A stretch of 64,000 bases of DNA from Phytophthora colocasiae (lineage: Eukaryota; Oomycota; Peronosporomycetes; Peronosporales; Peronosporaceae). The translations under genes were made by a program, and so were the position numbers. Positions 5,223-46,161 of the stretch are shown here, piece by piece (position 1 is the stretch's first letter; the number at the start of each line of letters is the position of its first letter). The stretch spans positions 2,046,001 through 2,110,000 of the forward strand of contig JAGKQI010000100.1 in NCBI GenBank assembly GCA_018806915.1, written 5' to 3'. The notes under the pieces were generated by a model that had not been told where the DNA came from, ran no database searches, and saw only the letters and a program-made list of their open reading frames with translations.

Positions 5223-5323
5223 ATGTTCAACAATTGCATCAAACTGGAGCTGGCTGGTCATGGATCCACTACAGTTCTGCTCGACGAAGCTGGGATAATC
5301 CCAAGAATTCCAGGATGGTAATC
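5223..5323. other. Remnant of PLD gene 5' flank between two Gypsy elements
   Basis: About 65 bp (5258-5323) match, with several substitutions, the stretch just upstream of the PLD-like gene starts at 30188-30245 and 47283-47340 (shared words gaagctggg, attccaggatgg). This shows the Gypsy insertions landed in a further copy or fragment of the same duplicated locus. No coding potential remains. Confidence 0.7.
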
Positions 5324-5623
5324 TGTGACGGGGGTCACACAGCACTTCACACAGAGGAAGGCTTGGAGTATACAAACTCCTAGTGAACGGCAGTTCACTC
5401 GGTCCCCAAAGACTTGGGGAGGTAGATTTAAGACTGAATATATTATAGATACTTGTTAGCTTGGCCTGCAATACAAACTAAAAGATATCTATAGTGTAAC
5501 CTATATAGAAGGTGATAGGTGGCAGCGGAGCCACCTGCCACGTGTCACCATGATGTATGACACACCAAAGGTATCCACATCGGAAGAGTGACTAAAGTCA
5601 CTCTTCAATGTAACCCTGTTACA
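5324..5623 (-). repeat. Gypsy-2 3' LTR
   Basis: 300 bp, TGTGACG..GTTACA. Nearly all of it folds into successive short hairpins: 5324-5339 (tgtgac/gtcaca), 5365-5380 (ggagt/actcc), 5382-5399 (agtgaac/gttcact), 5404-5419 (ccccaa/ttgggg), 5584-5605 (aagagtgact/agtcactctt). It lacks 16 bp present in the other LTR. Confidence 0.9.
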
Positions 5624-5637
5624 TCCCCCCCACTTAG
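5624..5637 (-). other. Gypsy-2 polypurine tract
   Basis: Read on the minus strand this is AGTGGGGGGGAT directly against the 3' LTR, the expected position and composition of the plus-strand primer of an LTR retrotransposon. Gypsy-3 has the equivalent at 11579-11594. Confidence 0.8.
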
Positions 5638-5787
5638 ATTCGAGAAGAGAGAAAATCCCTTTCACATTTCTCTCTTCAATGTCGAAATCGATCGACCTGC
5701 CGCCACTCTTATCGCTGCGGCTTCTGCTCTCACAGAGCACAGGGCGCACTGCCAACGCGTACCAGGCTTCCTTGGAAGCCAAGCAAC

Positions 5788-7813
5788 ATGTCTGCAAAGG
5801 GTGCAAACCCAGACGCGCAAGCGTCTTCACGGAAGAAGGCTGCAAAGCCAACTTCCAAGCCAGCCAAGCCTCGCGGCAAGGCTTCGGCACTTAATGAGGC
5901 CACAGATGTGGCCTCCAGGGCTCTTAGCTCGCCCAGCAGTACTGCTGCGACGGCTAGCCCTAGCCAAAGGCGCAGTAGGTCTCCGTCCCTACCGCCTGAT
6001 ACTCGACCGAATGACCATAGTCCCGGTTCCTGGAGTCCTTCCGAACAGGAAGCGACTCTTGTCAGCTACTCGGGCGACGAGAGCGACAACGGCGACGCCG
6101 AGGGCAAGCCTGCGGCTGGTGCTCCGACCACGGAGGAGCACTATGGAGACGTGGACACCGCGTCCAAGTCTCCCGACAATACCAGCGGCCGTGGTGGCGA
6201 CACTACGCCACCACCTGTCAGAAATCTGACACTTTCGGAAGGGCGTAAACGCGCCCGGGCCATTCTGGCAGAGGAGAAGGTGCCCAGCACCAACTCCAAG
6301 AAGCGTCATGCTTCACAGTCTCCTTGTCAAGACATGACAAGGAGAAGGGAGCTCGAAGAGATCTTCGGCCCCGACGACGTCGACGATGACGCTGATGAGG
6401 AGGAGGGCTCATCCGCGAGCCCCAAGAGATCACTAACGATCTTGATGAGCAGCAAGAGCTCTTCAGGCTGCTCAACAGCCAATGCGCACCGCACCAACGG
6501 TCGCACGTGAGTCTCATCAACACGATGAGGACTCTGCCCACCAGCGGGGATACTACCCGCCCGATCAAGGCTCGGGAGCTGCTGCGTATCTCGAGCAGCT
6601 CCAGGACCCACGTCCTCTCATAGGAGCCATACCTCCAAAGGCGCCTATGAGCGGGCCTTGGTTCAGAAAGAACCTCTCTTTCAAGGCAACCTCTCTGTTG
6701 CCAGGTGCGTGCTTCTAGCACAGCACCGAATTCCTCTCAAGGAATTCACCTCGCTTCGCAAGAAGCCTGAGACTAAGGGTGGTCTCAAGACCACATGGGT
6801 TACCCATGGTTCTCCCAGAGATCACTGCGTCGTGGGTCGACGCTGAGGACCTCTTCTGGCAATGGATCCGGTTGACAGTCAAGTCAGCCCAGGAGTACAA
6901 CAAAATCCGTGACGAAGATCACCTGGAGGACATCCTCCGCCTCCGGGACCTTCGTGTCCAGTTTGCCCACCTCGTAGGCAAACGTCAGCTCCATCATAAG
7001 ATGGAGCGACTGAGAACTGAGTCTCAGTCCAGCGCTCACAATGAGCGCGGGTATGGAACACATACATCTGTGTTCCAACCCCGTTCAGCGGCTAAGAAGC
7101 CGCGGACTACTTACGAGGCTGCCGCCGTGCCTCTTCCCAGCACGCGACAGCCTTCGGGCAGTCAACCTGGAGCCGCTCAATCGGCTCCCAGGTACTCTGC
7201 GACGCAGGGTACCCGCGCCACTTCACTCGGAGCTGACGCTTCCCACCGCAACGCCGCTCCTGGAGAACCCGCTCCACATGGTAGTGGCGTTCTCCGTTCC
7301 GGTCAAGCAAAGCCGGAGGAGGCCTCGCTCGACTGCACTTTCGAGCCGTCCCCGACGTTGGGGACTCAGAGGCCTTCGACTGGGCCTCTTGACCAACTTG
7401 TTGCTCAGCAACAGGAGGAGATCCGCCTCCTCCGAGCGCGTGTCCTTGCGCTTGAGGGTGCTCTTGGTCTTGAGCATGGCGGCCAAGCTGCCCCTGCAGC
7501 CGACCTGCCTGGTGTCTTGCGCCAGTTGGAAGACCTGCGTCTCGCGATGCAGGATCTTCATGGTCGTGTAGACCGTAGTGCCTCTTCGCGGGCACTTGAC
7601 TCTCTTCGTCAAGAGGTCTACGACCTTCAGGCGACGATGTCTCGCCGGGAGTCGCAACCGTACGCGTACTTCCAGCCGTCGTTCGACTCTCGCCTAGGGG
7701 CCTACTCCTATGGCCCCCTCGGTGTATCCACACCGCTCGTACCTTCCACCGGGGTACGGCTTCGCCCCTGGGAGTCACCAAACTCCCTATTACCTGGGGC
7801 GCTCGGCGCCTGA
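5788..7813 (+). pseudogene. Gypsy-2 antisense ORF (extra ORF convergent with pol), frameshifted
   Basis: Two long plus-strand frames, 5788-6510 (240 aa) and 6779-7813 (344 aa), appear to be one broken gene lying tail to tail with pol. The N-terminal part is Ser/Pro/Ala-rich with acidic stretches and a basic nuclear-localisation-like patch (EGRKRARAIL). The middle has a W-rich helical segment near residue 20 of the second frame (EDLFWQWIRLTV). The C-terminus is predicted coiled coil (QQQEEIRLLRARVLALEGAL, then LEDLRLAMQDLHGRV). The same order of regions occurs in the Gypsy-3 ORF at 11680-13210. I do not recognise the family. Its last ~700 bp are antisense to the chromodomain-coding end of pol. 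A Gag-like or chromatin-binding role is possible but unproven. Confidence 0.6.
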
Positions 7814-8247
7814 CGCTCAATCTCGCGTCGAGGAGGTTCGCTCTCCTCCTCGCGGCCGCCCTCAACCTCTTGAGGGGCCGCATGACCCTGAGGGTCATGG
7901 TACCGCTTCAGACGACCCACATAAAACGTCGGGTGGGTCGTCATCGACTTAGGCAAGTCGATCGTGTAGGCAGCGCCGTGCCTACCCAGGACCTTGAAGG
8001 GTCCAATGAAGCGATGCTTCAACTTGTTGCTCACCGTGGAGCTAACAGTGTTAAGAGGTAGGTTCCTAGTGTCGAGTAGCAATAAGTCACCCACATTAAA
8101 TGCACTTAAGTTTCCTCTCCCATGTTGGTCTGAGTACTCCTTTTGCTTGTCCTGTGCGAGTGCCATTGCATCTCGCACCCGGCTGATCACATTCAGCCTG
8201 TTGCCGACAAATGTCGACAACTTCTTCCACAGCGCGGCTGGTTCCAC
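7107..8247 (-). pseudogene. Gypsy-2 integrase C-terminus and chromodomain
   Basis: Two overlapping frames continue pol. 7708-8247 carries the integrase C-terminal GPY-type module (FNVGDLLLLDT, HRFIGPFKVLGRHG, TTHPTFYVGRLK). 7107-7898 ends in a chromodomain (HYHVERVLQERR, LRVKWRGYPASQSTWEPIE). Between them is a low-complexity linker. The frame change from the integrase core lies near the C-rich run at 8280-8290, and a second shift lies near 7800. The whole segment is antisense to the plus-strand ORF. Confidence 0.8.
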
Positions 8248-10646
8248 ACCGGAAACCTGGGAGGAAAGCTCTTTCCGAGCCCCCCCCCACTTACTCTCGA
8301 AGCCGCAGTGCCCCCACCCAGTGTGAGCGGCACCAGAGGGTTCCGAAGCCCGTTCAAGTAGAACGGCGTGAACCCCGTTGACGCGTGTACCGCGTTGTTG
8401 AGTGCAAACTCAACCATAGGCAGCTGCGCTGACCAAGAGCGCGGCGCCTCAGCGCAAACACTGCGCAGCACGTCCTCAACCACTCGGTTGACGCGCTCAG
8501 TCTGACCATCGGTCTGCGGATGGTCCGCTGTTGACATCGTCAACCGTGTTCCAAGCAATTGGAACAGCGTTTTCCAAAACGCAGCGGTAAACCGCGGGTC
8601 GCGGTCAGAGACAACAGTCTCAGGCAACCCGTGATAGCGGAAGACGCTATCAAGGAACAACTTCGCAGTTTGTTCCCCGGTAATGGTATCAGAGACCGGA
8701 GCAAGATGCACCATCTTGCTCAACCGGCATACAAACACCACAATGCCGGTGTTCTTCTGGTCATCGGCCGGAAGGCCGAAGACAAAGTCGAGACTCATCG
8801 ACTTCCAGCAGTCCAGTGGGACTGGCAGGCTCTGCAGCGGAGCCGACGCGTGCCCCGCTGGCTTCACGCGCTGACATGTTTCACATGTCTTGATGTACTT
8901 GGCCACCCACTTGTACATGTGGGCCCACCAAAACATCAGAGAGACCCCATGATAGGTCTTCTCTCGGCCCAAGTGGCCACTCGAAGGCACATCGTGTGCC
9001 TCGTGAAGTATATCATACTTCAGATCCTCGTCGTTCGGAACAACGACCCGCGGAGGATCCCCGGGCTCCACCCGATAGTGGAGCAGGCCATCGGCCCACT
9101 CATATCGGTGAAGCCGTACCCGCTGTCGAGGCGTAAGCCATTCGACCATAGCATCCGTGCCAGCGGACAAATACCGCACAATAGGGGCGAGGGTGTCATC
9201 GTCCCGATACGCCAAGCGTATTCGATCGTAAAGATCCGTCGTGGCCCGACTAATATGAGCGAACTCATAGTCGGGCCTGCGCGACAAAGCGTCGGCAAGC
9301 GTGTTGAGCTTGCCAGGCTTGTATTCAACGCGGAAGTTATACTCCGCGAAGAATGACAGCCAACGCGCCATCCGCTGCGATAAGTGCGGCGTATGGATGG
9401 CTGTCCGCAAGGACGCGTGGTCCGTATAGACCACAAAGGGCCTTGAGCCCAGAAGATGCACCCTGAACTTGACAAGAGCGTACTTCATCGACAAGAGTTC
9501 CTTGTCGTGAACGGGATAATTCCGTTCGGCAGCCTTTAGCTGCCTGGACTGGAACGAGATCACCCTATCTCGTCCCTCATCGTCCGGTTGCAATAGCGCA
9601 CAGCCAATTGCATAGTCGGAAGCGTCACAGACGACGCTAAACGACTTGGTATCGTCCGGCAATGCCAGGACGGGCGCGCATTGCAAACTCGCCTTGATGC
9701 TGTCAAAAGCATCCTGGTGCTGGCGCTCCCAGCACCACTCGGCCTCCTTCTTCAGAAGGTCCGACAAAGGCTTTGCGAGTCCCGCATAGCCAGCACTGTA
9801 CTTGTGCAAGTAGTTGGCTAAGCCCAACCACTTCCTCAGGTCCTTCTGTGACCGAGGAACAGGCCATGCCGCAATGGCCTTGACCTTGTCGGGATCCGCT
9901 CGGACCCCGACGCTGCTGACGAAGCAGCCGAGGACCTTAATCTCCTCAGCTGCAAAGACGCACTTTTCGATGTTGGCATAAAGCTTGTTAGCTCTCATGA
10001 CCTCAAACACTCGACGGAGGTGCTCCCGATGCACCTCTATAGCCGTCTTGCCTCCCTCGGCACGGCTATGGACGAATATATCGTCAAAGTACGTCTGCGC
10101 GAACGCACGCAAAGGTCTAACCAACTGTGTGACCAAGCGATTGAAGGTCGCTGGTGCGTTGGATAGACCTTGTGGCATTACCAGCCACTCCCAGAGCATA
10201 CCGCTCGGCGTGCTCACGGCCGTGAGCGGGATATCACACTCCCGCATCAGGATCTGGTAGTATCCATCCACCAGATCCAGCGCGCTGTACTGCGTGCAGC
10301 CGGCCATGTTGTTCAACAACACATACTTGCGAGGGATCGGCGTCTGTGCTGGCACAGTCGCGCTGTTCAGCTTATTGTAAGCATGAACCAGACGCCACTT
10401 CCCGTTCGGCTTGCGAACGCAGAAGGTTGGCGTCGAGTGCGGGGACTTCGATTCCCGCACCATTCCCGCTTTCGCCTTCGCGGCGAAGAACGCGTCAATG
10501 ACGTCGCTCTGCTCTCGAGGCAGGGGCCATTGACGCGTGACACAATACTTTGTGCCTGGCACGAGATCAATCTCGTGCCTGATCCCTCGATCTGGTGGGA
10601 GCTTTGAGGGTGGGTCCTTGGACACCATGTCCTCAAACTCCTTCAC
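8193..10646 (-). CDS. Gypsy-2 reverse transcriptase, RNase H and integrase
   Basis: An uninterrupted 817-aa frame. RT: KWRLVHAYNKLN, YSALDLVDGYYQI, VMPQGLSNAPATFNR and the catalytic QTYFDDIFVHS near residue 186. RNase H: VVCDASDYAIGCAL near 336 and VYTDHASLRT. Integrase: zinc finger HEAHDVPSSGH with CETCQRVK near 547-600, core SLDFVFGLP, VSDRDPRF and TDGQTERVN (catalytic D, D, E). It is in the same frame as 10683-11084, separated only by one TAG (10683-10685). That such an old element keeps this frame open is notable. The last ~25 residues are out of frame. Confidence 0.92.
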   Translation of the reverse strand: MKEFEDMVSKDPPSKLPPDRGIRHEIDLVPGTKYCVTRQWPLPREQSDVIDAFFAAKAKAGMVRESKSPHSTPTFCVRKPNGKWRLVHAYNKLNSATVPAQTPIPRKYVLLNNMAGCTQYSALDLVDGYYQILMRECDIPLTAVSTPSGMLWEWLVMPQGLSNAPATFNRLVTQLVRPLRAFAQTYFDDIFVHSRAEGGKTAIEVHREHLRRVFEVMRANKLYANIEKCVFAAEEIKVLGCFVSSVGVRADPDKVKAIAAWPVPRSQKDLRKWLGLANYLHKYSAGYAGLAKPLSDLLKKEAEWCWERQHQDAFDSIKASLQCAPVLALPDDTKSFSVVCDASDYAIGCALLQPDDEGRDRVISFQSRQLKAAERNYPVHDKELLSMKYALVKFRVHLLGSRPFVVYTDHASLRTAIHTPHLSQRMARWLSFFAEYNFRVEYKPGKLNTLADALSRRPDYEFAHISRATTDLYDRIRLAYRDDDTLAPIVRYLSAGTDAMVEWLTPRQRVRLHRYEWADGLLHYRVEPGDPPRVVVPNDEDLKYDILHEAHDVPSSGHLGREKTYHGVSLMFWWAHMYKWVAKYIKTCETCQRVKPAGHASAPLQSLPVPLDCWKSMSLDFVFGLPADDQKNTGIVVFVCRLSKMVHLAPVSDTITGEQTAKLFLDSVFRYHGLPETVVSDRDPRFTAAFWKTLFQLLGTRLTMSTADHPQTDGQTERVNRVVEDVLRSVCAEAPRSWSAQLPMVEFALNNAVHASTGFTPFYLNGLRNPLVPLTLGGGTAASRVSGGGLGKSFPPRFPVWNQPRCGRSCRHLSATG

Positions 10647-10682
10647 TAAAGGATACAGCGGATCCTTCGGATTCTTCCGAAT

Positions 10683-11084
10683 CTAGGAGCCCGTGCGCGA
10701 CGCACGCTGCTTCCGGAACTCCTCCAGGACGTCTTCGTCCATCACTGAGGAGGAGTTCAACTCCTCTGGAGTGGGCTCCGGCCTAAGGAGAACCATTTCC
10801 GATATCTCCCCGGCCTTCAACTCGGCCAGGAAGTCCTCCATCGTGACTTCCTCGAGGTTCAATAGCTCTGATACCTCAGGCAGGGGTGCCAACTCGATGG
10901 CCCCCGCCTTCACGCGATGCCCGGTCACGCCGTCGAAGATGTGATAGCATTCTTCGACCGACTGTGACCTAGGAGCCTTTAGCTCCTGTCCCAAGTCCTC
11001 GTGGACTTCTTCGGGATGGTATTCTACCAACCCCGGCTTATGACCATGGCGTGGGCTTAACTTACCCACGCCCGGTGATGCCAC
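10683..11084 (-). pseudogene. Gypsy-2 protease-RT linker, ended by an in-frame TAG
   Basis: A 133-aa acidic segment (EELNSSSVMDEDVLEEF) in the same frame as RT; the TAG at 10683-10685 is the only barrier to RT. It is also in frame with the protease ORF at 19585-20130 once the Gypsy-3 insertion is removed (825 bp apart). This shows that Gypsy-3 landed inside the protease-RT spacer. Palindromes are dense here, for example 11050-11070 and 11075-11098. Confidence 0.7.
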
Positions 11085-11119
11085 TACGATGGCATCACGA
11101 GCCCTCGTGGCTCCATGCG

Positions 11120-11578
11120 TGTAATGGGTCTACCTAGACCTATTAGGTGGCGTACACGTGCGCTTACGTATATGAGGAAGCGTGCAATTAGAATAGACTT
11201 AATTTAAGTATACTTATTTAAATAAGTATAATTAAATCAAATATAACTAAATTAAACTGCAAAATACCGTAAAATGAGAACTGTTATTGAATTTGGCATA
11301 AGCCAATTATGGACCTCCTAAAACTGTTTGTTATCTATTTCTAAAGGGTCTGCCAACGTGTGGCTGGTAGAAACTCTGCTCAGTGATTGGTAGAAATCCG
11401 TTACTTTCTACCAATATATGCACAAATGCACACGAACCACCCAATAATGTGGTTCGCCCATGTATCCATTGGTGTGTACAGCACACCAAGGTCTGAGGCC
11501 CATTTCCAACCTCTAACAGTTATCCTAACTGTTAGAGTTACAAGTGGTACAACCACTTGTACGTGTAACCCCGTTACA
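11120..11578 (-). repeat. Gypsy-3 3' LTR
   Basis: Pairs with 18876-19335. It holds successive hairpins, for example 11511-11537 (ctctaacagt/actgttagag), then one with acaagtgg/ccacttgt arms, and ggtagaaa/tttctacc near 11390-11413. An AT-rich block at 11190-11260 may be the promoter region. Confidence 0.92.
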
Positions 11579-11594
11579 CCATCCCCCCGTTAAG
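11579..11594 (-). other. Gypsy-3 polypurine tract
   Basis: Minus-strand reading is AACGGGGGGATGG abutting the 3' LTR, the counterpart of the Gypsy-2 tract at 5624-5637. Both are followed, further inward, by the shared word cgaatctta. Confidence 0.75.
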
Positions 11595-11679
11595 ATTCGA
11601 CGTATCGGTCTCGATACGTCAATCAACAGAACTTGACAAGACCGTCAAGTTCCCGAGAGAAATCCGAGTTCATTTCGCA

Positions 11680-13210
11680 ATGGACTCGCCAACGCCCACG
11701 TCTTTGTCCGCTTCTGCGGACGCGCAAGCCTCACCTGCTGCCTCTGCAGCAGGAACAACGACCTCAGCAGTGCCCACTAGCACTGCTGCTCCCAGCGGTC
11801 CGACAGAGAAGCTCTCTGTCACCAAGTACCATGCTCTCCATAAGGAGAAGCACGAGAAGAAGAAGAAGTCTTCTTCTCTAGCAGAGATTAAGAATCCTGC
11901 TGTCCCTCTCAAAGAACTCTTTGGAGAGGACTACGAAGACATCCTCGACTACGAGGAGGATGTCGAGGAGGGGGAGGTTGATGTCAAGGCTCCCGCTCCC
12001 GTGTCTTCGTCTGAAGACAAGTCAGACCCACCCGTGGGATCTCGACGACCTCGTGATGAGGCCTCGGACGCTTCAAGCTCGAAGCGTCCGCGCAGTGATG
12101 ATGAAGCGTCCCCCATGTCGAGGGCGCTCACTGCCTCGCGCACTGATCCGCCAGTGCGCACAGCATGGATGCCTACTGAGGCTGAGATCCATGACCGGTT
12201 CGGTGCAAGTTCACCACCGAACCCGATACTGTTGTACTCATGCAACAGTATCAACGACGACGACGTCGCCGCTAAGGTTGTCTTTGAGTCCGAGACTCAA
12301 AGACGCGACTACTATATCGGGCTCTTCCATGAGCTCCGATACTATGCAGCGAAGAAGACTTCGCGCAAGAGCAAAGTGCCAGAGTGGCAGGCACTTTGTC
12401 AGTCGTGGAATGCCTTTGTTGATAACTTCAACAAAGACCCGAAGGCGTATCGCGAGCGCGTTGCTGCGGCTCGCGATCGCTACTACACTTACACTACGCG
12501 TGGTAAGTGTGAACGCCTCCATGATCAGTCCATGGAAGCGGGGATCCCATGTGCCGTTCCCTTTGGCACACCTGTCCGCAACACGTCTCACCGAAAGTGA
12601 TCTCCTGGGGTACACGGTCGTCTGTGTACCCGATAACATCAAGGAGCTCCGTGATCGTATTGTGCCACGCGAGGCTCCGAGTGCTGTGGCTAACCGCAGC
12701 ACTCCTCGTGCAGGGCTTACCCCTGCAAGTTATGGTGGGCTTCGTACGCCCTCACCATTTCCGGAACGTCCTCCATCAGGACGTTCCGCGGCTCCCATGT
12801 ATCTCGATGGGGAGGAAATCCTCTCCAACGAATACGAAAATGAACCCCTTGAGAGTTCGTTCTCTTATGAGCCACAATCCGCTCAACAATCCAGCGGATC
12901 GCTCCACGCGCGTCGCGCAACGGCGGCGGAGGGGGTGGGAACACTCCCTCCGCATGGTCAACGCTATGACCATGACGATCGTGCCCTGCACGATCGAGTT
13001 GCTGCGCTGGAGCAGACACAGAGCGCTGAGATAGCTGCTCTGAAGCAGGAGGTTCGTGTCCTCCGTGCTGAGGTCTGCGAGGCAGCTCAGACTGCCTCGA
13101 ACCTGTCGTCCGGTCTTGGGACGAGAGTGAACCGGTTGATCGACCGTGTCGACGGTCTCGAGAAGGCCTTCCAGGCCTCTCGCACTCCTCAGTCGGACTA
13201 CCAAGCCTAG
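11680..13210 (+). pseudogene. Gypsy-3 antisense ORF (extra ORF convergent with pol), one frameshift
   Basis: The frame from ATG 11680 runs 306 aa to a TGA at 12598-12600; a +1 shift near 12540-12600 continues it (AHLSATRLTESDLLGYTVV) to 13210, about 510 aa in all. N-terminus: Ser/Ala/Thr-rich, then a Lys cluster (KHEKKKKSS), an acidic block (EDYEDILDYEEDVEEGEVD) and a basic patch (SSKRPRSDDEAS). Middle: aromatic helical segment with WQALCQSWNAFVDNFN. C-terminus: coiled coil (VAALEQTQSAEIAALKQEV, then RLIDRVDGLEKAFQ). The same order occurs in Gypsy-2. TCATTTCGCAAT immediately upstream of the ATG resembles the oomycete initiator. Its 3' ~490 bp are antisense to the chromodomain. Function unknown. 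Confidence 0.65.
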
Positions 13211-13850
13211 GTAGTCCGTGCTGCACGTACGGCTTCAACCGCCCGACGTAGAAGGTCGGGTGGAGCCTCATGCTGGACGGTATGTCCAGCCGGTACGCGT
13301 TGCCGTGCCGTTCAAGTACTTTGAACGGCCCAATGAATCTTGGAGCAAGCTTGCTTGCTCCAAAGTCAGACACTGCATGTCTAGGTAGGTTTTGTGTAGC
13401 TAACAAAACTAATGAACCCTTCAGCTTCTGTCGATCGACAGAAGCTGCGATAGCATCCTGGACAAACCGTATGACGGCTTGTCTTCGCTGGACAAAGTCT
13501 AGCGCACCCGAGCTGAATCCATTCAGCTTGTCGCCCTTGTCAGCAGCAGGCCCTGCCTGCTCGCTATCATCTCTCATGTCTGTGCCCGGCCCAGACATCG
13601 CGCGCTCGTTCCTGCTCGAACGAGACGTCGCACGCGTCACCGCAGCTGATAGTGTGCTGCTATCAGTTGCATTCTGCGGTTGTTCGGACGCAACCGTAGA
13701 TCCTCCCCCACTTAAGGAGGAAGCTACCCGCCGAGCATGCTCGGCAATCGTGGATGCCTCATGGCGTTCACGTAGAACGGTGTATGCCCTGTCGAGGCAT
13801 GCACCGAGTTGTTGATGGCAAACTCTGCCATCGGCAAGCACTCGCTCCAA
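12717..13850 (-). pseudogene. Gypsy-3 integrase C-terminus and chromodomain
   Basis: A 377-aa frame with the integrase C-terminal module near residues 160-215 (GASKLAPRFIGPFKVLERHG, LHPTFYVGRLKPY). A Ser/Arg/Gln-rich linker follows, then a chromodomain at the end (IRWIVERIVAHKR, FRIRWRGFPPHRDTWEP). It is continuous in function, but not in frame, with the integrase core at 13724-14317. Its last third is antisense to the plus-strand ORF. Confidence 0.82.
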
Positions 13851-14317
13851 TGCGGGAACGAGTGAGCGTAGCTCTTCAGCGTGTCACCCAGTACGCGGTT
13901 GACACGTTCGGTCTGCCCGTCCGTCTGCGGATGATCCGCAGTCGACATTGACAGTTGTGAACCAAGAAGTGTAAACACTTCTTGCCAGAACCGCGCTGTG
14001 AAGCGTGGATCACGGTCCGACACAATGTCGAGCGGCATGCCATGGTGTTTGAACACCATGTCAACAAACAGTCGCGCAGTCTGCGCGGCTGTAACAGTAG
14101 CCGGGACGGCAGCAAGATGAACCATCTTGCTGAATCTGTCCACAAAGACAACGATGCCCGTCCTCCGCTTGCTGTCAGGCGGAAGACCGAAGACAAAGTC
14201 CATGGACATGGACTGCCAACACTCCGACGGAGTCGGTAGTGATTGAAGAGGAGCCTGCGAGAACTGCGCAGGCTTCACGCGTTGACAAACCTCGCAAGCA
14301 CGTACGTACTTGCGCAC
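13724..14317 (-). pseudogene. Gypsy-3 integrase core
   Basis: 197 aa starting inside the zinc finger (CEVCQRVK) and holding the rve core: SMDFVFGLPPD, VSDRDPRFTA and TDGQTERVNR, giving the D, D, E triad. The ORF is separated from the first half of the zinc finger (14363-14563) by an in-frame TAA at 14361-14363 that sits in a 10-bp-arm hairpin (14351-14377). In Gypsy-2 the equivalent position reads Tyr. Confidence 0.88.
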
Positions 14318-14362
14318 CCACTTGTACTGGTGGTTCCAGTAGAAGTCACGCGTGAGAAGAGT

Positions 14363-14563
14363 TTATGTCTTCTCACGACCCGGATGCCCTGCCGTGGGGG
14401 CATCGTGATACTCGAACATGATCCTCAACCGGAGGTCATGGTCATTCGGAACGACAATGCGATCCGCATTGTCGTCTACTGCACCGTACAGCAGTAGGCC
14501 TTCGTGTACACGATAACGGTGTACACGAGCTCGAAGATGAGGGGTTAGCTTCCGACGTGCCAC
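14363..14563 (-). pseudogene. Gypsy-3 integrase zinc-finger N-terminal half
   Basis: 66 aa matching Gypsy-2 residues just before the integrase core (VPNDHDLRLRI, FEYHDAPTAGHPGREKT). It includes the two histidines of the HHCC finger and ends at TAA 14361-14363. The frame before it (14545-15570) differs, so a second break lies near 14560-14600. Confidence 0.75.
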
Positions 14564-15570
14564 GTCGGAAGGTGCTGCGAGGAACTCCAGCAGCCCCTTC
14601 GCGTCTGCATCCCTTGCATACGCGTTCTTCTCGTCGTCAACGTTGACGACGGCACACTTGTCCTCACGACGCCAACTGCGATGGCGTCGACCGTCTCCGC
14701 ATAGTCAGGTCGACGCGATAACGCGTCGGCCACTACGTTGAGTCTTCCGGGTTTGTACTCCACCCGGAAGTTGTACTCCGCGAAGAAGGACAACCATCTC
14801 GCCATACGTTGCGAGATGTGCGGCGACTTAATCGCCGTACGCAATGATGCGTGGTCTGTATAGACCACGAACGGTCTACTCCCAAGTAGATACACTCGGA
14901 ACTTTGCGAGTGCATACTTCATGGCAAGGAGCTCCTTGTCATGTACGGGGTAGTTACGCTCAGCTGGCTTCAGCTGACGCGATTGATAGTAGACCACACG
15001 ATCATGCCCTTCGTGATCGTGTTGCATCAATGCACATCCGATTGCAAAGTCGGATGCATCGCACACTACGTGGAATGGACGATCTGGGTCCGCCACGGCC
15101 AAGATCGGCGCTTCAGTCAAGCCCTGCTTGACTGCACCGAATGCTTCCTCGCACTCGGTAGTCCAAATCCACTCAGCGTCTTTCTTAAGAAGCTGTGACA
15201 ACGGGTAAATCTTGCCCGCATAGTTGTCCACATACTTGCACAAGTACGTGGCAAGCCCAAGGAACTGCCTCAGTTCCTTCATATTGGATGGCGTGGGCCA
15301 TTCATTGATCACTCTGACCTTCTCTGGGTCAGGGCGCACGCCGTCTTTCCCCACGAGACACCCCAGCACGGGTATCTCGCTCGCCCCGAAGATGCACTTC
15401 TTCAGGTTCGCATAGAGTTTATGTTTCCTCATAAGCTCTAGCAGCTTCCGGAGATGCACCTTGTGCATCTCAATGTCCGTCTTCCCGTTCACAACCCACC
15501 TTGGACGAACACGTCGTCGAAGTAGCTCGGTGCGAAGTCGCGCACCAAGCGCAATAGATGTGTCACGCAT
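14545..15570 (-). pseudogene. Gypsy-3 RT thumb and RNase H
   Basis: 341 aa with the end of the RT palm/thumb (HKLYANLKKCIFGASE, VLGCLVGKDGVRPDP, LRQFLGLATYL) and RNase H (VVCDASDFAIGCAL, RNYPVHDKELLAMK, VYTDHASLRTAI, NVVADALSRRPDY). It overlaps the RT catalytic frame 15489-15851 by 82 bp in another frame. A perfect 18-bp palindrome lies at 14633-14650 and a 7-bp-arm hairpin at 14851-14868. Confidence 0.85.
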
Positions 15571-15851
15571 CTATTGAACGTCGCAGGGGCGTTCTTAAGT
15601 CCCTGCGGCATGACGAGCCACTCCCAAAGCATACCGCTTGGAGTGCTTACCGCAGTGAGAGGGATGTCCCTCTCACGCATGAGGATCTGATAGAATCCAT
15701 CACGCAGATCTAGAGCACTGAAGATAGTGCTCAAGGCCATCGAATCGATGATAGCATCTTTTCGCGGTATCGGCGTCTGCGCCGGTATCGTCGCATCGTT
15801 CAATTTGTTGTACGCATGAACGATGCGCCAACCGCCCTGTGGTTTCTTCAC
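15489..15851 (-). pseudogene. Gypsy-3 RT palm
   Basis: 120 aa holding GGWRIVHAYNKLN, FSALDLRDGFYQI, VMPQGLKNAPATFNR and the catalytic APSYFDDVFV. The frame is lost two codons after the FDD box. Hairpins continue through this conserved region, for example 15655-15676 with 10-bp arms and a 2-nt loop. Confidence 0.85.
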
Positions 15852-17883
15852 ACAGAACGTTGGGGCACTTGACCTGCAAGACGACGACTTTCAAAGAAGT
15901 CGTCGATCGCTTGCACTTGTTCACGCGGCAGTGGCCACTGCCGTGTAACACAGTACTTTGTGCCCGGCACGAGATCAATCTCGTGCTGTACGCCCTTATC
16001 CTTCGGAAGCTCGAAGGAATCTCGTCCGGGAGTACATCCTTGTACTCCCGCAGAGCTTCGTAGTAGGGACTCGACCTCAACGAGTCCCAAATCTGCTCTT
16101 CGAAGCGCTGCTTCTTAGTCTTCGCACTGAGGGAGTCATCACCCTCAGTGATTCCACCGACGACGAGCTGCTTCAGCTCTTCGGCCTCGCGCTCCACTCT
16201 CTCGATATCCGAGAGAATGCAAATTTGTTCGATGCGTCCATCGTACAAGTCTCGTGGGAAGCGCTTCCAACTCATCGTTGGAAGTGCGGTCAACGCCGAC
16301 GCACTCGTCGGCGGATTCTCCAACCGCATCCTCTGGTACTGTAACCCAGTACCAGTACGTGTCAAGACGTTCAACGTCTCGACACTCGGTGTCTGCACTG
16401 CAGATACACCCGTCTCAGTCCCGGACTGAGACTCGCGCAGCTCCCTGAGCTTGCGCCGCGAAGATCTACCGTGGAGCCCGGCTCCAGGTGCTCCACGTCC
16501 AAGGCATCGCACCTTGGACGGGACGTTATCGCAATCGTCAGCGGATTCCTTCCGCTGACTCGCACTATCAAGCCCTGCTTGAGTGCCGCTCATCGCGTGC
16601 AGCGCTGCTGCACGTGAGCACGCAGGTTGTTCGGGTGCTGGGCGTTTGCAACCGCCAGCACCTCCTGCCGCGCAGTCGGTTCCCTGAACCGCTGCGCCTT
16701 CATCCACTCCCGGAACGGATGAAGCAACCGCATCGTCGACCCCCGGAGTCGACGTGCTCTCGCTAGCTTCCTGCGCTCGCGAGTGTTCGCTTGTACACAT
16801 ATCGTCAGCTCCCAGAGCTGACGCACGATCGCTAGTTCCCGGAACTAGCAGCGAACGTTCGCCTGTACACGCATCATCAGCTCCCGGAGCTGATGCGCGA
16901 TCGCTAGTTCCCAGAACTAGCAGCGACGCGCCAGTGGCGTCAGCTCCCAGAGCTGACGCACGCCTTTCGGTTCCCCGAATGTTATTTGCTTCGTCAACTC
17001 CCAGAGTTGACGCGACGTCGTCGGCGCGACCCTTGGGGGCTTGAAGTACCTCCAAGGATACCGGTAATACCGGTATTTTACCTTCTCTCAGGTGAATGCG
17101 ATTCACCTGACCATCACTCATGTGACAAACATCATTCAGATGTTTATGCGTCAGGTGATTCACATTCACCTGACCATCACTCATGTGACCGCGACCCTTC
17201 GGCTCAGATTTCTGAGTCGACACACATTTTCTCCCAACGACTCTCGAAGTCGTTGATGGTCGCCGGCGGCGATCGGAGGCAGCGGCGGCCGCTGCTGCCT
17301 TAACTGGGGATCCACATGCACCGGCCGGTGCATGCGCAGCACTGACAGGGCCATCGCTCTCTGTCGCGCATGTGTTGTTGAAGCGTACGAGCGTACGCTT
17401 CTCCCAGTTGATCACCGGGTCATGCCGTGCAAGCCACGGCATGCCTAATACCAAGTCGAACTTATCGTCTAGATCCAAGACGATAAGATCTTCTACAAAC
17501 GTCCTTCGTTTGTAAGAGAAGCGCACACGGACTACGCGCTTCTCAGTCCTCACGGTGGCACCTGTTGCCAACCGCACCTCCAACACGCCGCGAGGCGTGT
17601 CGGCCTCTTCGAAGTCAAGCCTTCGAAGACTTCCCTGTCGAACAAAGTTGTTCGACGCGCCCGAGTCCAATAAGGCACGAAGAGAGTTCGCTCTCTTCGA
17701 CATCACGTTCAGGATGACAAGGTTTGGCTTGTCATCTTGCAGCTTACAGCGAGAAACCTTCTCGCTGGGGGCAGCAGTCCTCATCGTCGCGTGTCCAAGC
17801 TCGACACGCGAGACTGCATCACCAGTAGGACGCCCCGCGCCTACTGGTCCTTGGCGTTTTTTGAACGCCCGCCCGCTGTGCAC
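15700..17883 (-). CDS. Gypsy-3 protease plus long repeat-bearing spacer
   Basis: A 727-aa frame entered by -1 frameshifting from gag. Near residue 70 ALLDSGASNNFVRQGS is the aspartic protease active site, and FDLVLGMPWLARHDP follows near 145. Residues ~180-560 are a spacer with an alanine run, two HMSDGQVN repeats and a run of short repeats of the form ASALGAD / LLVPGTS / STPGVD. It then leads towards RT (KDVLPDEIP), but the frame is lost at about 16020 and the remaining ~110 residues are out-of-frame translation; the correct frame reappears at 15848-16090 (HEIDLVPGTKYCVTRQ). The reading start is set by the slippery site at 17856-17862, not by a start codon. Confidence 0.8.
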   Translation of the reverse strand: MHSGRAFKKRQGPVGAGRPTGDAVSRVELGHATMRTAAPSEKVSRCKLQDDKPNLVILNVMSKRANSLRALLDSGASNNFVRQGSLRRLDFEEADTPRGVLEVRLATGATVRTEKRVVRVRFSYKRRTFVEDLIVLDLDDKFDLVLGMPWLARHDPVINWEKRTLVRFNNTCATESDGPVSAAHAPAGACGSPVKAAAAAAASDRRRRPSTTSRVVGRKCVSTQKSEPKGRGHMSDGQVNVNHLTHKHLNDVCHMSDGQVNRIHLREGKIPVLPVSLEVLQAPKGRADDVASTLGVDEANNIRGTERRASALGADATGASLLVLGTSDRASAPGADDACTGERSLLVPGTSDRASALGADDMCTSEHSRAQEASESTSTPGVDDAVASSVPGVDEGAAVQGTDCAAGGAGGCKRPAPEQPACSRAAALHAMSGTQAGLDSASQRKESADDCDNVPSKVRCLGRGAPGAGLHGRSSRRKLRELRESQSGTETGVSAVQTPSVETLNVLTRTGTGLQYQRMRLENPPTSASALTALPTMSWKRFPRDLYDGRIEQICILSDIERVEREAEELKQLVVGGITEGDDSLSAKTKKQRFEEQIWDSLRSSPYYEALREYKDVLPDEIPSSFRRIRAYSTRLISCRAQSTVLHGSGHCRVNKCKRSTTSLKVVVLQVKCPNVLCEETTGRLAHRSCVQQIERCDDTGADADTAKRCYHRFDGLEHYLQCSRSA
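17822..17862 (-). promoter_or_regulatory. Gypsy-3 gag-pol -1 ribosomal frameshift signal
   Basis: On the minus strand gag reads TCA AAA AAC, so A AAA AAC (17856-17862) is a canonical -1 slippery heptamer. Eight nucleotides later a hairpin begins: CCAGTAGG (17840-17847) pairing with CCTACTGG (17822-17829) around a 10-nt loop. The gag stop TAG (17841-17843) is inside the 5' arm. Slipping back one base enters the protease frame exactly (KKRQGPVGAGRPTG). Layout and frame direction agree with known retroviral-type signals; activity is inferred. Confidence 0.8.
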
Positions 17884-18791
17884 TCGCGTGCATAGTGACC
17901 GATGTTACTACACTTGTAACATCGAACCTTGCCGTATCTACGCTGCTGTTGACCAGCAGTCGTAGCACTCGAGAGGTCCATAGGTTCCGGACCTCCCGTC
18001 TTCACAACAGGACGCGCCGGTTTCGGCGCGTTCGCATGGAGTTTAGCTTGACGCCGGCTAAACTCCTCTTGGATCGCAAGGCTGATCCCCTCCTCGAGAG
18101 TATTCAGATACTCTCGGAAGAGATATGTTTTGACGGGACCATCTCTTAGTCCCTTCATGAACGTGACGACCTTGGTCGCCTCGTCGATCGGGTTGGCCAC
18201 TATGTTCGATACCAAGTATCGAGCACGCTGGGCAAAGGTGTGAACATCATCCTTGCCCTGTTGCAGATCGAGAAACTCTGCTCTCGATCTGAACTCGTTC
18301 TTCGGAGGCTCAAACGCAAGCTTGAGTTCCTCCTTGAACACCTCGTACGTGCTGAAGCACGTAGGATCCGAGAGTCGGCGCCCATAGGCCCAACCCCTCG
18401 CATGTCCGCCAAGACATGACATGGCGAACGCGACCTTCGACATCGGGTCGACGATACGTCGAGCCGCAACGGCTGTGTCAAGTTCGACAAGCCAACGAAG
18501 GAGGTTCTCGTCCTCCTTCCCCGTGTAGGTACTCACGTGGAGTTTCAACGACTCCACGCGTGGCTTAGGGGAAGCCACCGAGGCAGCAACATCTCGTTGC
18601 TCCTTAACAATGTACCCCAGAGCAACACCGTGTTGCTCTGTCGGCGATAGCGTACGAAGCATCGTAGCTACCGCTGCCTCTCCAATGACTCGCGAGAGTC
18701 TTTGGAGAGCCTCCCACTCTGGATCAGACAGGTGGGCGCAGTCCGTGCGCGTCACGGACATTTGAGGGGTCCCAGCAGATCCCTCATCCAT
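17841..18791 (-). CDS. Gypsy-3 Gag
   Basis: 316 aa, intact. The Gag capsid-type region occupies about residues 85-235 (NLLRWLVELDTAVAARR, FAMSCLGGHARGWAY, FRSRAEFLDLQQGKDDV, TFMKGLRDGPVKTYLF), followed by PEPMDLSSA and a CCHC zinc knuckle CYKCSNIGHYAREC with the standard C-x2-C-x4-H-x4-C spacing. It forms the virus-like particle that packages element RNA. It ends KDQ-TAG inside the frameshift hairpin. The ATG is about 65 bp inside the primer-binding site. Confidence 0.9.
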   Translation of the reverse strand: MDEGSAGTPQMSVTRTDCAHLSDPEWEALQRLSRVIGEAAVATMLRTLSPTEQHGVALGYIVKEQRDVAASVASPKPRVESLKLHVSTYTGKEDENLLRWLVELDTAVAARRIVDPMSKVAFAMSCLGGHARGWAYGRRLSDPTCFSTYEVFKEELKLAFEPPKNEFRSRAEFLDLQQGKDDVHTFAQRARYLVSNIVANPIDEATKVVTFMKGLRDGPVKTYLFREYLNTLEEGISLAIQEEFSRRQAKLHANAPKPARPVVKTGGPEPMDLSSATTAGQQQRRYGKVRCYKCSNIGHYARECTAGGRSKNAKDQ

Positions 18792-18857
18792 TGGGAAGTT
18801 CTCTACCCGCGTTCGTATGACTCCATACGAACGAACAGCAGTCGGTCGTGGGACGGA

Positions 18858-18873
18858 CTACAAAGTGCTACCA
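18858..18873 (-). other. Gypsy-3 primer-binding site
   Basis: Minus strand TGGTAGCACTTTGTAG, two bases inside the 5' LTR. TGG at the start is the usual complement of a tRNA 3' CCA end. Gypsy-2 has nearly the same site at 21331-21345, also two bases from its LTR. I cannot name the tRNA with confidence. Confidence 0.7.
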
Positions 18874-18875
18874 GG

Positions 18876-19335
18876 TGTAATGGGTCTACCTAGACCTATT
18901 AGGTGGCGTACACGTGCGCTTACGTATATGAGGAAGCGTGCAATTAGAATAGACTTAATTTAAGTATACTTATTTAAATAAGTATAATTAAATCAAATAT
19001 AACTAAATTAAACTGCAAAATACCGTAAAATGAGAACTGTTATTGAATTTGGCATAAGCCAATTATGGACCTCCTAAAACTGTTTGTTATCTATTTCTAA
19101 AGGGTCTGCCAACGTGTGGCTGGCAGAAACTCTGCTCAGTGATTGGTAGAAATCCGTTACTTTCTACCAATAATATGCACAAATGCACACGAACCACCCA
19201 ATAATGTGGTTCGCCCATGTATCCATTGGTGTGTACAGCACACCAAGGTCTGAGGCCCATTTCCAACCTCTAACAGTTATCCTAACTGTTAGAGTTGCAA
19301 GTGGTACAACCACTTGTACGTGTAACCCCGTTACA
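18876..19335 (-). repeat. Gypsy-3 5' LTR
   Basis: 460 bp, over 99% identical to 11120-11578. It sits upstream of gag on the minus strand. It is immediately followed by the ATGCG target duplication and the Gypsy-2 spacer. Confidence 0.92.
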
Positions 19336-19584
19336 ATGCGGAACTCTGTTACCCGCATCAGTTATGGTCTGAGCGACCTGGCGTCGAACTACTTCTCGTA
19401 CGCGTGGCGATGCCACTACTTCGGCATCGCGAGCCATCTTGGCTTCCTGCGGAACTCTTTCATCCGCTTGTGGACCTAAGTTACCCACCTGGTTAGTGCT
19501 CTCGGGCACTACCACAGTCGCAGCCTGTACGTCGCTGCGACTTCGTGCGTGGGGCCCTGCTGTCGTTGCAGACCCACACGTAGG

Positions 19585-20256
19585 TCAAGGGCCTCCGCCC
19601 GTTGCCCCGGCCATCCATGGCCCACGATCACTTCTCGTGTGGGGCGATGTAGCACCGACTACACCAGCCCCCAAATACTCCTCGGACGCTGCCGCGTCCT
19701 GGCGGTTCCAGCGAACGCCCTTAGTCCTGGCAGAGGTGGGAACATGACTCACCAAAGCTCTGTCAGAGACTGCAGGCCGGCTAGCCCCAATGGCTTTGCC
19801 GCGCCAATCGATCCAGGGCTCGTGCTTCTCAAGCCACGGCATCCCTAGGATCAAGTCGTACTTGTCCATCTCGAGGACAACGAACGACTCCACGCTGTCG
19901 AAGTCCTCAAACTTCACAGCCAGGTCCACCTGGACCTTTGGTACTTCCACCACCGTACCATCGGCTAGTCGTACGGCGACTAGCCCACTTCCCTCGCTCT
20001 CACGTAGAGCGTCCTCAAACTTGCCGCGATTCTTTGCGACAGTTTGTCGGCGAGCAAAGTTCTTGCTCGCCCCAGAGTCTATCAAGACTCTAAAGGGGTT
20101 GTTAAACCCCCGTACACTCGCGTGTACCACCAGCAGCCCACCGCTGCCCTTCTCCGCTTTGAGAGTCCCAAGACTCTCTGGGGCTAAGTCTCCACTGCGT
20201 GTGCCTCCCGCATCACCCGCATGGGGACTTAGTGTTTCCCCAGTAGGGCGCCCCGC
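19585..20256 (-). pseudogene. Gypsy-2 protease
   Basis: Retropepsin region with FRVLIDSGASKNFARRQ (catalytic DSGA) and KYDLILGMPWLEKHEP; an open frame begins at 20130, but the same frame extends back through GPVGAGRPTG at the gag overlap, as in Gypsy-3. It stops at TGA 19585-19587, before the Gypsy-3 insertion. Four hairpins lie back to back across the active-site codons (20050-20070, 20074-20091, 20095-20110, 20112-20127). Confidence 0.8.
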
Positions 20257-20265
20257 CCCTACTGG
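20240..20265 (-). promoter_or_regulatory. Gypsy-2 gag-stop hairpin (likely frameshift signal)
   Basis: A 9-bp stem (20240-20248 with 20257-20265, arms CCAGTAGGG/CCCTACTGG on the minus strand) encloses the gag TAG (20259-20261). It starts 8 nt after GGGGAAC, the position of the Gypsy-3 slippery heptamer. GGGGAAC is not a canonical heptamer, so the Gypsy-2 site may be degenerate. Confidence 0.65.
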
Positions 20266-21272
20266 TCCCCGGAGTTCCCCTGACTCTTGGGCGCCGGCTT
20301 CTTCCAGCGGCCCTTAGAGCCCTGAGGCTAGGAAGACCTCTTCCATTGCCCCCCAGAGGGGCAGACACGTGCGAAGTGTCCGAAACGCCCGCACTCGAAA
20401 CAGCGGATGCGTTTCTGCTCGGCGAGCCCCAAGTCCATAGGGGCTGGTCCCGAGCCTGCTCCATTCCCAGGAGCACTGGCCGACACCGTCGTCGGCCCGC
20501 TGTGGCCTTGCCACGCATAGGCAGGAGTCTGAGCCTGTGTATGATTCTAGTCCTCCTGGAGCGCGACTTGAATCGCCTCCTCCATCGTGTTGACCTGCAC
20601 GCGGAACAGTTGCGTGCGGGCCGGGCTTACTCTTAAGCCGTCCATGAACACAGTTACTTGGATGTGTTCAGGTAGGGGGTTTCCTACCAGAGATGCCGCG
20701 AGAACACGCATCTCTTGGATGTACTCGTGCAGGTCACGTTTCCCTTGCTTGCAGGCTAGGAAGCGTGACCGCTGGCGATACTCATAGTTCGCCGGGAGGA
20801 ATGCGGCCCGAAGCTGTTCGCACGACTGGGCCCAGGATGTAAAACATCCAGGCGACGTCGCTTCGCGCGTGTACGCCCATGTCTTCGCTCGACCCCCGAG
20901 GTTAGACAGCGCGAAAGCGACCCGAAGTCGCTCCACCGAGATGAGAGCCGCCTCCATGGCGAGCTCAACTTCTCGGATCCAGAAGTGAAGGTTTTCACCT
21001 TCTTTCCCGTCATAGGGAAGAACCTTGAGTCTTAAAGGCTTGGGTTGAACCGGCCTCGGTTCAACCACAGGAGCCTCAAAGGTTCCTCGAACGTGCTCAA
21101 TGAGCCCACGTTCGTACATGTCGAACGCCGCCACGCGTTCGACCTGCTCGGCCGGCGTCGCCGCCGCCAAGCTTCGGAAGGCATCCATCCCAAAGATGCC
21201 CGCCATCTTCCGGACCGACTCAAACTGAGAGTCGGTCAAGTGAGGAAACTCACTTCGATCCATGGTGGCCAA
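20259..21272 (-). pseudogene. Gypsy-2 Gag with two premature TAG codons
   Basis: The first 241 codons (21272-20547) encode the capsid-type region (NLHFWIREVELAMEAAL, FALSNLGGRAKTWAY, FMDGLRVSPARTQLFRV). A TAG at 20547-20549 precedes a spacer ending PAPMDLGLAEQ and a CCHC knuckle CFECGRFGHFARVC. A second TAG lies at 20328-20330, and the natural stop TAG (GDQ) is at 20259-20261. All are in one frame with no indel. It is homologous to the Gypsy-3 Gag. Confidence 0.85.
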
Positions 21273-21330
21273 CTACTTTTGGCCACAGAGGATTCAGGTA
21301 ATCAATCTACCCGCGTAGGCGTAGGATTGA

Positions 21331-21345
21331 CTACAAGTGCTACCA
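21331..21345 (-). other. Gypsy-2 primer-binding site
   Basis: Minus strand TGGTAGCACTTGTAG, two bases inside the 5' LTR. It is one base shorter than the Gypsy-3 site but otherwise the same, suggesting the same primer tRNA. Confidence 0.7.
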
Positions 21346-21347
21346 AG

Positions 21348-21663
21348 TGTGACGGGGGTCACACAGCACTTCACACAGAGGAAGGCTTGGAGTATACAAA
21401 CTCCTAGTGAACGGCAGTTCACTCGGTCCCCAAAGACTTGGGGAGACTAACTAAAGATTAGGTAGATTTAAGACTGAATATATTATAGATACTTGTTAGC
21501 TTGGCCTGCAATACAAACTAAAAGATATCTATATTGTAACCTATATAGAAGGTGAAAGGTGGCTGCGGAGCCACCTGCCACGTGTCACCATGATGTATGA
21601 CACACCAAATGTATCCACTTCGGAAGAGTGACTTTAGTCACTCTTCAATGTAACCCCGTTACA
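21348..21663 (-). repeat. Gypsy-2 5' LTR
   Basis: 316 bp; it contains 16 bp (gactaactaaagatta, after the ttgggg arm) absent from the 3' LTR. The final hairpin has the same 10-bp arms as the other LTR but loop TT (21634-21635) instead of AA (5594-5595). Confidence 0.9.
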
Positions 21664-21668
21664 TAATC

Positions 21669-22934: not shown

Positions 22935-23198
22935 CAGGGATTGGTAGCAGTTTTCGAACTAGTACTGTTAGTACTAAATATTCTAAGTAATATCACTATA
23001 GCAGTTAGCAGGTTGGGGCATTGCCGCCTTTAGTATTATACCAAAATTAGCAGGTTTGCAAAAGCTGCGATTAGTACTAAAAAAGTACTAAAAAGGTGCT
23101 AAATCTTAGAAGGTCGCACTGGGTACATTCCCGCCTTCAATCTCACACTCGGGTGCATTCGCGCTCAGTTCGTGTTTAGCCAAGTCGTACGGACCGCT

Positions 23199-23327
23199 AT
23201 GAAGTGCGCAAAAAGCACTTGTGACTTCGGTCACCTGTCGAAAACCTACCCATGTACCATTTGCGGCCGCCGCGTTCATCACGCGTGCTGCAATGAGCTA
23301 TGTGTAGACGCTCCACTCTCCAAATAG
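23199..23327 (+). pseudogene. hAT N-terminal zinc-binding fragment
   Basis: A 42-codon ORF with a dense Cys/His pattern: C-x4-C-x3-H, then YPCTICGRRVHHACC. It lies just inside the left end of the hAT element, where a BED-like DNA-binding zinc finger would be expected. It ends at TAG after LSK. It may be the surviving N-terminus of the transposase; alternatively an unrelated PHD-like fragment. Confidence 0.45.
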
Positions 23328-36111: not shown

Positions 36112-36118
36112 CTCCCCC

Positions 36119-41135: not shown

Positions 41136-41142
41136 CTCCCCC

Positions 41143-46156: not shown

Positions 46157-46161
46157 TCTTG

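Follow-up and report, generated by a model that had tools for sequence, protein, structure and literature searches.

Dense short hairpins in two nested Gypsy elements of Phytophthora colocasiae and their restriction to one clade of elements in the genome

A 64,000-nucleotide stretch of the Phytophthora colocasiae genome (GenBank assembly GCA_018806915.1, contig JAGKQI010000100.1, positions 2,046,001 to 2,110,000, forward strand; hereafter the window) contains two nested Ty3/Gypsy elements, Gypsy-3 inserted into Gypsy-2, both with their sense strand on the minus strand. These elements carry a real and strong excess of short perfect hairpins, and a survey of the same assembly (92.5 Mb) indicates that this hairpin texture is a property of one clade of elements in this genome. 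As to its cause, we give about an even chance to the reading that fold-back template switching made the arms and keeps the two of each hairpin identical; the switching would probably take place in reverse transcription, with the survival of each change depending on selection on the proteins.

A perfect inverted repeat counted as a hairpin if its arms reached 7 bp or more and its loop did not exceed 15 nt, and the numbers were compared with those in 20 dinucleotide shuffles. The left part of Gypsy-2 held 67 hairpins versus 4.3 in shuffled sequence (11.6/kb), Gypsy-3 held 152 versus 7.4 (18.5/kb) and the right part of Gypsy-2 held 24 versus 1.8 (10.3/kb), i.e. a 13-21 fold enrichment, whereas the controls stayed at a background of about 1/kb (6 versus 4.8 in Gypsy-1, 22 versus 19 in the Copia region and 12 versus 13 in host genes), in agreement with the original prediction, made from the letters of the window, that such density is not evident there. 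When codon-preserving shuffles were used (100 for each open reading frame, ORF), all 8 ORFs of Gypsy-2 and Gypsy-3 exceeded the shuffle maximum, at 7-13 times the mean, and the 5 control ORFs all fell inside the shuffle range; the counts in the two elements thus lie far above both kinds of shuffle. The enrichment was local, with loops of 0-12 nt and little past about 15 nt, and the arms were mostly of 7-11 bp and rarely of 12-13 bp. The density was similar over long terminal repeats (LTRs), gag, protease, reverse transcriptase (RT), RNase H, integrase and the antisense ORF (13.7-24.1/kb in Gypsy-3 and 9.6-15.8/kb in Gypsy-2), so hairpins do occur in every segment, as had been proposed. The further wording that the elements are built almost entirely of hairpins captured the enrichment but overstated the coverage, which was 23-40% of bases and reached 42% (6,942 of 16,341) with arms of at least 6 bp and loops of at most 12 nt. 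The nine places that had been quoted as inverted repeats all hold perfect repeats as described, the palindrome given at 14633-14650 being corrected to 14632-14651 with 10-bp arms. RNA folding z-scores per 150-nt window were -3.3 to -4.8 in Gypsy-2 and Gypsy-3 on both strands, whereas Copia and the host genes were near 0 and Gypsy-1 gave -0.5 and -1.3.

Chance, base composition, amino-acid repeats or assembly error would find some footing in the Gypsy-3 linker, which contains one 72-bp tandem pair and repeated motifs carrying nine hairpins. Such an explanation is refuted by the margins over the dinucleotide shuffles and over the codon shuffles in each of the 8 ORFs and by the recurrence of the texture in 20 Gypsy-2 and 30 Gypsy-3 copies on many contigs, and it is also opposed by the density of about 15 hairpins/kb in the LTRs; we give it next to no credence.

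Within true coding frames, 114 hairpins were found versus 10.6 (standard deviation 2.8) in codon-preserving shuffles. The register in which wobble positions pair with wobble positions was depleted (23 of the 114 versus 36.6% expected from shuffles, p 0.0002), and private amino-acid changes were not enriched in stems (16/211 versus 40/441 in Gypsy-3, and 7/128 versus 41/542 in Gypsy-2). These results indicate that synonymous sites carry the pairing while the proteins are preserved, and bear out the view that synonymous choice has been bent to make hairpins. Codon rarity showed no difference between 5' and 3' arms.

In the survey, with densities taken from the RNase H part for Gypsy-3 and from pol for Gypsy-2, the Gypsy-3 family reached 19.1 hairpins/kb (30 copies, window copy included) and the Gypsy-2 family 10.3/kb (14 copies), older Gypsy-2 copies showing 10.1/kb (6 copies). 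The sister family F73, with 73% amino-acid identity to Gypsy-2, showed 2.8/kb in 10 copies and 2.6-3.3 in four further ones, and two of its copies held 8 and 6 hairpins versus 3.1 in their own codon shuffles. Twenty other Gypsy copies, with 35-40% identity to the RNase H part of Gypsy-3 and chosen among the 150 RNase H matches listed, showed 0-0.9/kb. Because F73 is low and the other Gypsy copies are at background, neither the host nor Gypsy elements generally yield the texture, as far as sampled. A search for further families of the clade recovered only F73 copies, and one for DNA of relatives in viral contig and genome contig collections found none.

These limits bear on the possibility that host replication or repair perfects the hairpins after insertion, with the RT of the element uninvolved. 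Gypsy-1, Copia, the host genes and the 20 other Gypsy copies are all at background in the same genome, most hairpins are common to a family, and in single copies decay outnumbers formation; we therefore regard a host process as quite improbable, although one observation on LTR pairs, given below, speaks for it. The restriction to one clade leads us to infer that, if template switching made the arms, the element's own RT was the agent. A bolder form of this reading, which we hold only tentatively and below even chances, is that the RT of the clade has an inborn habit of switching to the nascent strand, thereby rewriting over evolution the whole element genome, with its genes, into a chain of perfect hairpins, and that the sister family lost the habit and reverted to ordinary sequence. 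Traces of hairpins in F73 were slight for Gypsy-3 (162 of 347 pairs versus 151.7, a value reached by 13 of 300 shuffles) and absent for Gypsy-2 (83 of 175 pairs versus 81.9).

The main rival of template switching is selection for a structured element RNA or single-stranded complementary DNA (to pack it, stabilise it or hide it from small-RNA silencing), which would have built the hairpins and would keep them through synonymous sites, switching being a side effect. Such selection, which we judge unlikely on balance but a serious candidate, would fit z-scores near -4 for the folding of 150-nt windows and the stability of hairpins within families. It would also fit the pairing that Gypsy-3 and Gypsy-2 have in common over and above codon use (180 of 389 pairs versus 155.9, reached by 0 of 300 shuffles); stem positions themselves are weakly shared between the two (42 shared stem bases versus 27, standard deviation 9, and by another measure 192 versus 146, standard deviation 20, with 14 of 910 shifts). 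On the other side, hairpins are few in F73 although many of its copies are free of stops, and structure therefore seems unneeded for copying.

The simple form of that rival, in which a folded sense RNA is selected, is opposed by the strand data. Almost all pairing is of the Watson-Crick type, and the sense strand has no advantage. Of the helices of at least 9 bp that half or more of the copies contain, 35 were perfect and 7 had one mismatch in Gypsy-3, versus about 0.6 and 2.4 in shuffled window elements, and single internal mismatches in the window with flanks of 3 comprised 15 sense G-U, 19 antisense G-U and 58 others. Stem variants toward G-U, sense versus antisense, were 30 versus 26 (single-copy) and 6 versus 8 (shared) in 26 Gypsy-3 copies, and 7 versus 11 and 2 versus 1 in 20 Gypsy-2 copies; the Gypsy-3 variant counts leave out L012, the first 400 columns, and the divergent L016, L019, L025 and L028. 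The antisense strand had the more negative folding z-score, by about 0.7, none of 29 four-base loops was GNRA or UNCG in the sense reading whereas 4 GNRA and 1 UNCG of 29 occurred in the antisense one, and hairpin spacing in Gypsy-3 was random rather than even (coefficient of variation of gaps 0.96-1.04), being slightly clustered in Gypsy-2. When selection on RNA pairs was simulated in a toy model starting from random sequence, the leftover mismatches were mostly sense G-U (17/20, 10/10 and 8/9), which also counts against the rival. Ordered RNA structure would be expected to be better on the RNA strand and to tolerate G-U pairs there, and this was not found, except for a small contrary lean in the fixed mismatches described below. 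Taken together, the strand data and the random Gypsy-3 spacing count against a simple version of RNA-structure selection, one of the two causes put forward in the original prediction, which nevertheless stands as a rival.

The other proposed cause, template switching during reverse transcription, is supported directly by the spacer inversions, i.e. spacers that invert as template switching does, found at two hairpins. One of them, with 11-bp arms, lies in the LTRs of Gypsy-2, where its central spacer is AA at 5583-5606 (minus strand) and TT in its mate at 21623-21646 (minus strand). Genome-wide, 141 places with exact flanks carried AA (131), TT (9) or another pair (1), whereas a control AA outside hairpins in the same LTR was AA in all 100 places listed of 133 (9/141 versus 0/100, p 0.012). 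A second LTR pair, C35:663554/671527, 8 kb apart and taken as one element by distance and strand, also holds one AA and one TT, and for this reason at least two inversion events look separate. These two disagreeing LTR pairs are also the point in favour of a host process, since some events then postdate or end the last reverse transcription. The second hairpin lies in Gypsy-3 coding sequence (14667-14689, minus strand), has 10-bp arms and is decayed in the window copy; its 3-nt spacer, counted by hand among 100 matches listed of 210, was GCT in 53, GCA in 29, AGC in 11, TGC in 5 and GTT in 2, AGC and TGC (16 of the 100) being the inverted forms. Copies with the inverted spacer lie close together at G000:C17:444899-478367 (about 16.7 kb apart) and G000:C52:6279-73166, which likely points to segmental or local duplication.

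According to the template-switching reading, a nascent strand that contains a short, imperfect inverted repeat would pair with itself, and its 3' end would copy the earlier arm in place of the true template before returning to it. Such copying would perfect the arm or, in a switch between strands, would reverse the spacer. Among the outcomes in coding DNA, only near-synonymous ones would persist; new copies would inherit the hairpins, and dead copies would lose them through ordinary mutation.

A considerable body of results weighs against this reading. Recent arm-making events were not caught, since change clusters that improved pairing amounted to 0/57 in Gypsy-3 (4 worsened it), 1/29 in Gypsy-2 (1 worsened) and 0/9 in F73 (0 worsened), and the comparisons of copies revealed no clear arm homogenisation, understood as a multi-base change making one arm the complement of the other. 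Among 43 private deletions in Gypsy-3, 3 lengthened arms and 13 shortened them. Hairpin turnover is slow, because most hairpins occur in at least 90% of the family copies (51 of 65 in Gypsy-3 and 18 of 26 in Gypsy-2), and only 2 real two-sided changes from one Watson-Crick pair to another were present among 26 Gypsy-3 copies. These 2 are what stood after the recount of 18 apparent compensatory changes, which were mostly misaligned linker repeats plus one flank. Third-position variants shared by copies, relative to single-copy ones, were depleted in Gypsy-3 stems (11:42 versus 72:117, odds ratio 0.43, p 0.022), the pattern expected from selection or repair and thus a point for the structural rival, which is however weakened by the absence of such a depletion in Gypsy-2 (7:12 versus 47:79). 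In comparison with F73, the third base was kept in 68 of 131 cases in the 5' arm and in 41 of 116 in the 3' arm (p 0.010), an asymmetry that favours template switching but was gone in the comparisons between Gypsy-2 and Gypsy-3 (p 0.53). The excess of 5'-U-A pairs predicted for one-strand switching in the available text of PMC8794818 was not seen in the 5' arms (T 0.20, A 0.24, G 0.31, C 0.25). Simulated arm-copying on random sequence, with the parameters chosen, gave few long arms and did not settle the question.

The same holds for some of the mismatches and spacers. Helices of at least 9 bp in Gypsy-2 were 4 perfect versus 3 with one mismatch, hardly an excess. Single internal mismatches with flanks of 4 were 7 sense G-U, 5 antisense G-U and 10 others, the two G-U kinds together making 12 of 22, and the fixed one-mismatch helices over the three families were 5 sense G-U, 1 antisense and 5 others, a lean that also favours structure selection. 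Spacer inversion was seen in just 1 of 24 long-armed Gypsy-3 pol hairpins over 26 copies and in 0 of 21 Gypsy-2 hairpins, one apparent Gypsy-2 case being a misaligned flank. The hairpin at 15655-15676 (minus strand, 10-bp arms), traced through the genome, showed no true inversion: among 100 matches listed of 196, the spacer was TG as in the window in 92, TA in 6, TT in 1 and CA in 1, and the CA case proved to be the other-strand reading of one C49 place with a mirrored flank. Moreover, the inverted-spacer places may descend from each other, AGC and TGC could represent one inversion plus a substitution, and spacer inversion, being possible at any good hairpin, may be a result of the texture and not its cause. 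At G000:C49:1673569-1673606, one place of this hairpin of 15655-15676, an identical 8-base flank stands on each side, its arms being at least 18 instead of 10, and these grown arms could be a fold-back event.

The nine repeated hairpins of the Gypsy-3 linker (16669-17017, minus strand), with a near-fixed loop and covarying arms, give a similarly mixed picture. The residue pairs that they encode are mostly those that the base pairing calls for (A-A, T-V and V-T, with one V-V). In favour of template switching, both the 15 two-sided cells and the 88.9% of paired cells were matched by 0 of 500 shuffles, which ignore relatedness although related repeats can exceed shuffles without structure; paired cells fell to 20-51% when slid. 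Further pair types were not above shuffles (321/500), a result that likewise weighs against template switching. The same residue pairs prevail in 120 related proteins of several Phytophthora species (A-A at 83, T-V at 91 and V-T at 41 of 288 motif places), although these share ancestry, and A-V, which would pair through a sense G-U, occupies 49 of the 288. Also unfavourable is that residue pairs compatible with sense G-U outnumbered those compatible with antisense G-U in these relatives (52 versus 19, not independent).

Regarding the elements themselves, assignment to Ty3/Gypsy agrees with their gene order, with LTRs of the TG...CA type and with 5-bp target duplications, the protease being detected by Pfam in Gypsy-3 only. 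Gypsy-2 (minus strand) spans 5319-21668 with its target duplication TAATC, read directly at 5319-5323 and 21664-21668, the element proper being 5324-21663. Its sense 3' LTR is at 5324-5623 and its sense 5' LTR at 21348-21663 (5 hairpins in 316 bp), both on the minus strand, as are gag (20547-21272, Pfam Retrotrans_gag) and the 817-amino acid pol ORF with RT, RNase H and integrase (8193-10646), which holds 27 hairpins versus 3.4 in codon shuffles and whose closest protein, at 87%, is from P. ramorum. The antisense-side ORFs at 5788-6510 and 6779-7813 (plus strand) showed no Pfam match and hold 20 hairpins over the stretch 5788-7813. Pfam domains in Gypsy-2 were gag, RT, RNase H and integrase.

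Gypsy-3 (minus strand) spans 11115-19340 with its target duplication ATGCG at 11115-11119 and 19336-19340, the element proper being 11120-19335. Its sense 3' LTR (11120-11578) and sense 5' LTR (18876-19335, 7 hairpins in 460 bp) flank, likewise on the minus strand, a chromodomain and Tf2-type SH3 part (12717-13850, by Pfam), an integrase part placed by tblastn (13730-14641, with one internal stop in the window copy), an RNase H part (14545-15570), an RT part (15492-15869, by Pfam), a protease and long linker ORF with 51 hairpins versus 3.9 in codon shuffles (15700-17883), and gag with a zinc knuckle (17841-18791). Pfam domains in Gypsy-3 were gag, protease, RT, RNase H and chromodomain (PF00385); no chromodomain matched the Gypsy-2 pol ORF, the Gypsy-2 frame covered, and the scanned ORFs and pieces, which did not include the stop-bearing integrase piece, gave no second (archaeal-type) RNase H beyond RT_RNaseH. 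The window's Gypsy-3 pol contains five frame breaks, three of them in or at hairpins, while hairpins cover 40% of the element; the loopless 20-bp palindrome mentioned above (14632-14651, minus strand) is at such a break, with a private 4-nt deletion in the window copy and a median arm of 9 in the other copies. The antisense ORF of Gypsy-3 (11680-12600, plus strand) has relatives in many Phytophthora, the best being 84% in P. citrophthora. The antisense stretch 11680-12966 (plus strand), adjoining the 3' LTR, gave 574 matches in many Phytophthora and no Pfam domain, and has as many hairpins as the sense genes.

Elsewhere in the window, positions 21700-25500, outside both elements, showed a mild rise (9 hairpins versus 3.3, standard deviation 1.8, in shuffles), and 25500-28900 held 2 versus 2.7. 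The Copia array (30775-46300) has a unit repeated every 5,020 bp or so, with many 300-bp stretches 100% identical, and has on either side a segment repeated at 98% (29479-30058 and 46572-47153); near its ends, outside the Gypsy elements, an 18-bp perfect inverted repeat with a 16-nt loop occurs twice, at 30146-30197 and 47241-47292. The 2,177-amino acid ORF at 50788-57321 (minus strand) encodes helicase and zinc finger (PHD-type) domains and adjoins an ELMO/CED-12 ORF (57491-58687).

If true, the synonymous sites of a mobile element would here be shaped throughout its genome by a copying habit of a mutational kind, or else by very strong selection for structure. With sister families at about 19, 10 and 3 hairpins/kb and many copies in one genome, a long-standing question can be put to the test, namely whether perfect stems come from templated copying or from selection and compensation. 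No earlier account of such a hairpin texture was found in the open-licence PubMed Central (PMC) literature. The genome-scale ordered RNA structure of RNA viruses is a whole-genome folding excess over shuffles. This excess is common to both, but in the present elements, at a z-score of about -4, it consists mostly of short perfect Watson-Crick hairpins and is not better on the sense strand. Among oomycete Ty3/Gypsy elements, Chronos has a chromodomain and an extra RNase H (PMC5348765, available text); Gypsy-3 resembles it in its chromodomain and differs in showing only the ordinary RT_RNaseH in the pieces scanned, and the words hairpin, inverted and palindrom- are absent from the main text of that paper as available. 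In yeast, according to the available text of PMC8604942, spacer inversions by template switching were observed only with arms over 9 bp and changed 2-5 bases, in agreement with the 11-bp arms and 2 nt, and the 10-bp arms and 3 nt, found here. Spacer inversion and arm identity are likewise shared with template-switch mutation in yeast (PMC8604942) and in RNA genes (PMC8794818), as far as those texts describe it, but these cases are single events, whereas here the texture extends over a whole clade and arm-making events are not clearly seen. The closest precedent is that of the mitochondrial genes of Nematomorpha, which contain coding palindromes and for which template switching is discussed by the authors as one possible mechanism (PMC6649704, available text). 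As described there, perfect repeats lie in functional coding sequence with no excess of imperfect ones, synonymous sites are used, the wobble-wobble register is avoided and template switching is put forward as what maintains the repeats; here the register is avoided to the extent given above, and perfect helices prevail over one-mismatch helices in Gypsy-3 (35:7) and only barely in Gypsy-2 (4:3). Unlike those mitochondrial genes, with repeats of up to 284 bp (PMC6649704, same text), the present case is a nuclear retroelement clade with arms mostly of 7-11 and up to 13 bp, at 10-19 hairpins/kb, in the LTRs as well as in the genes.

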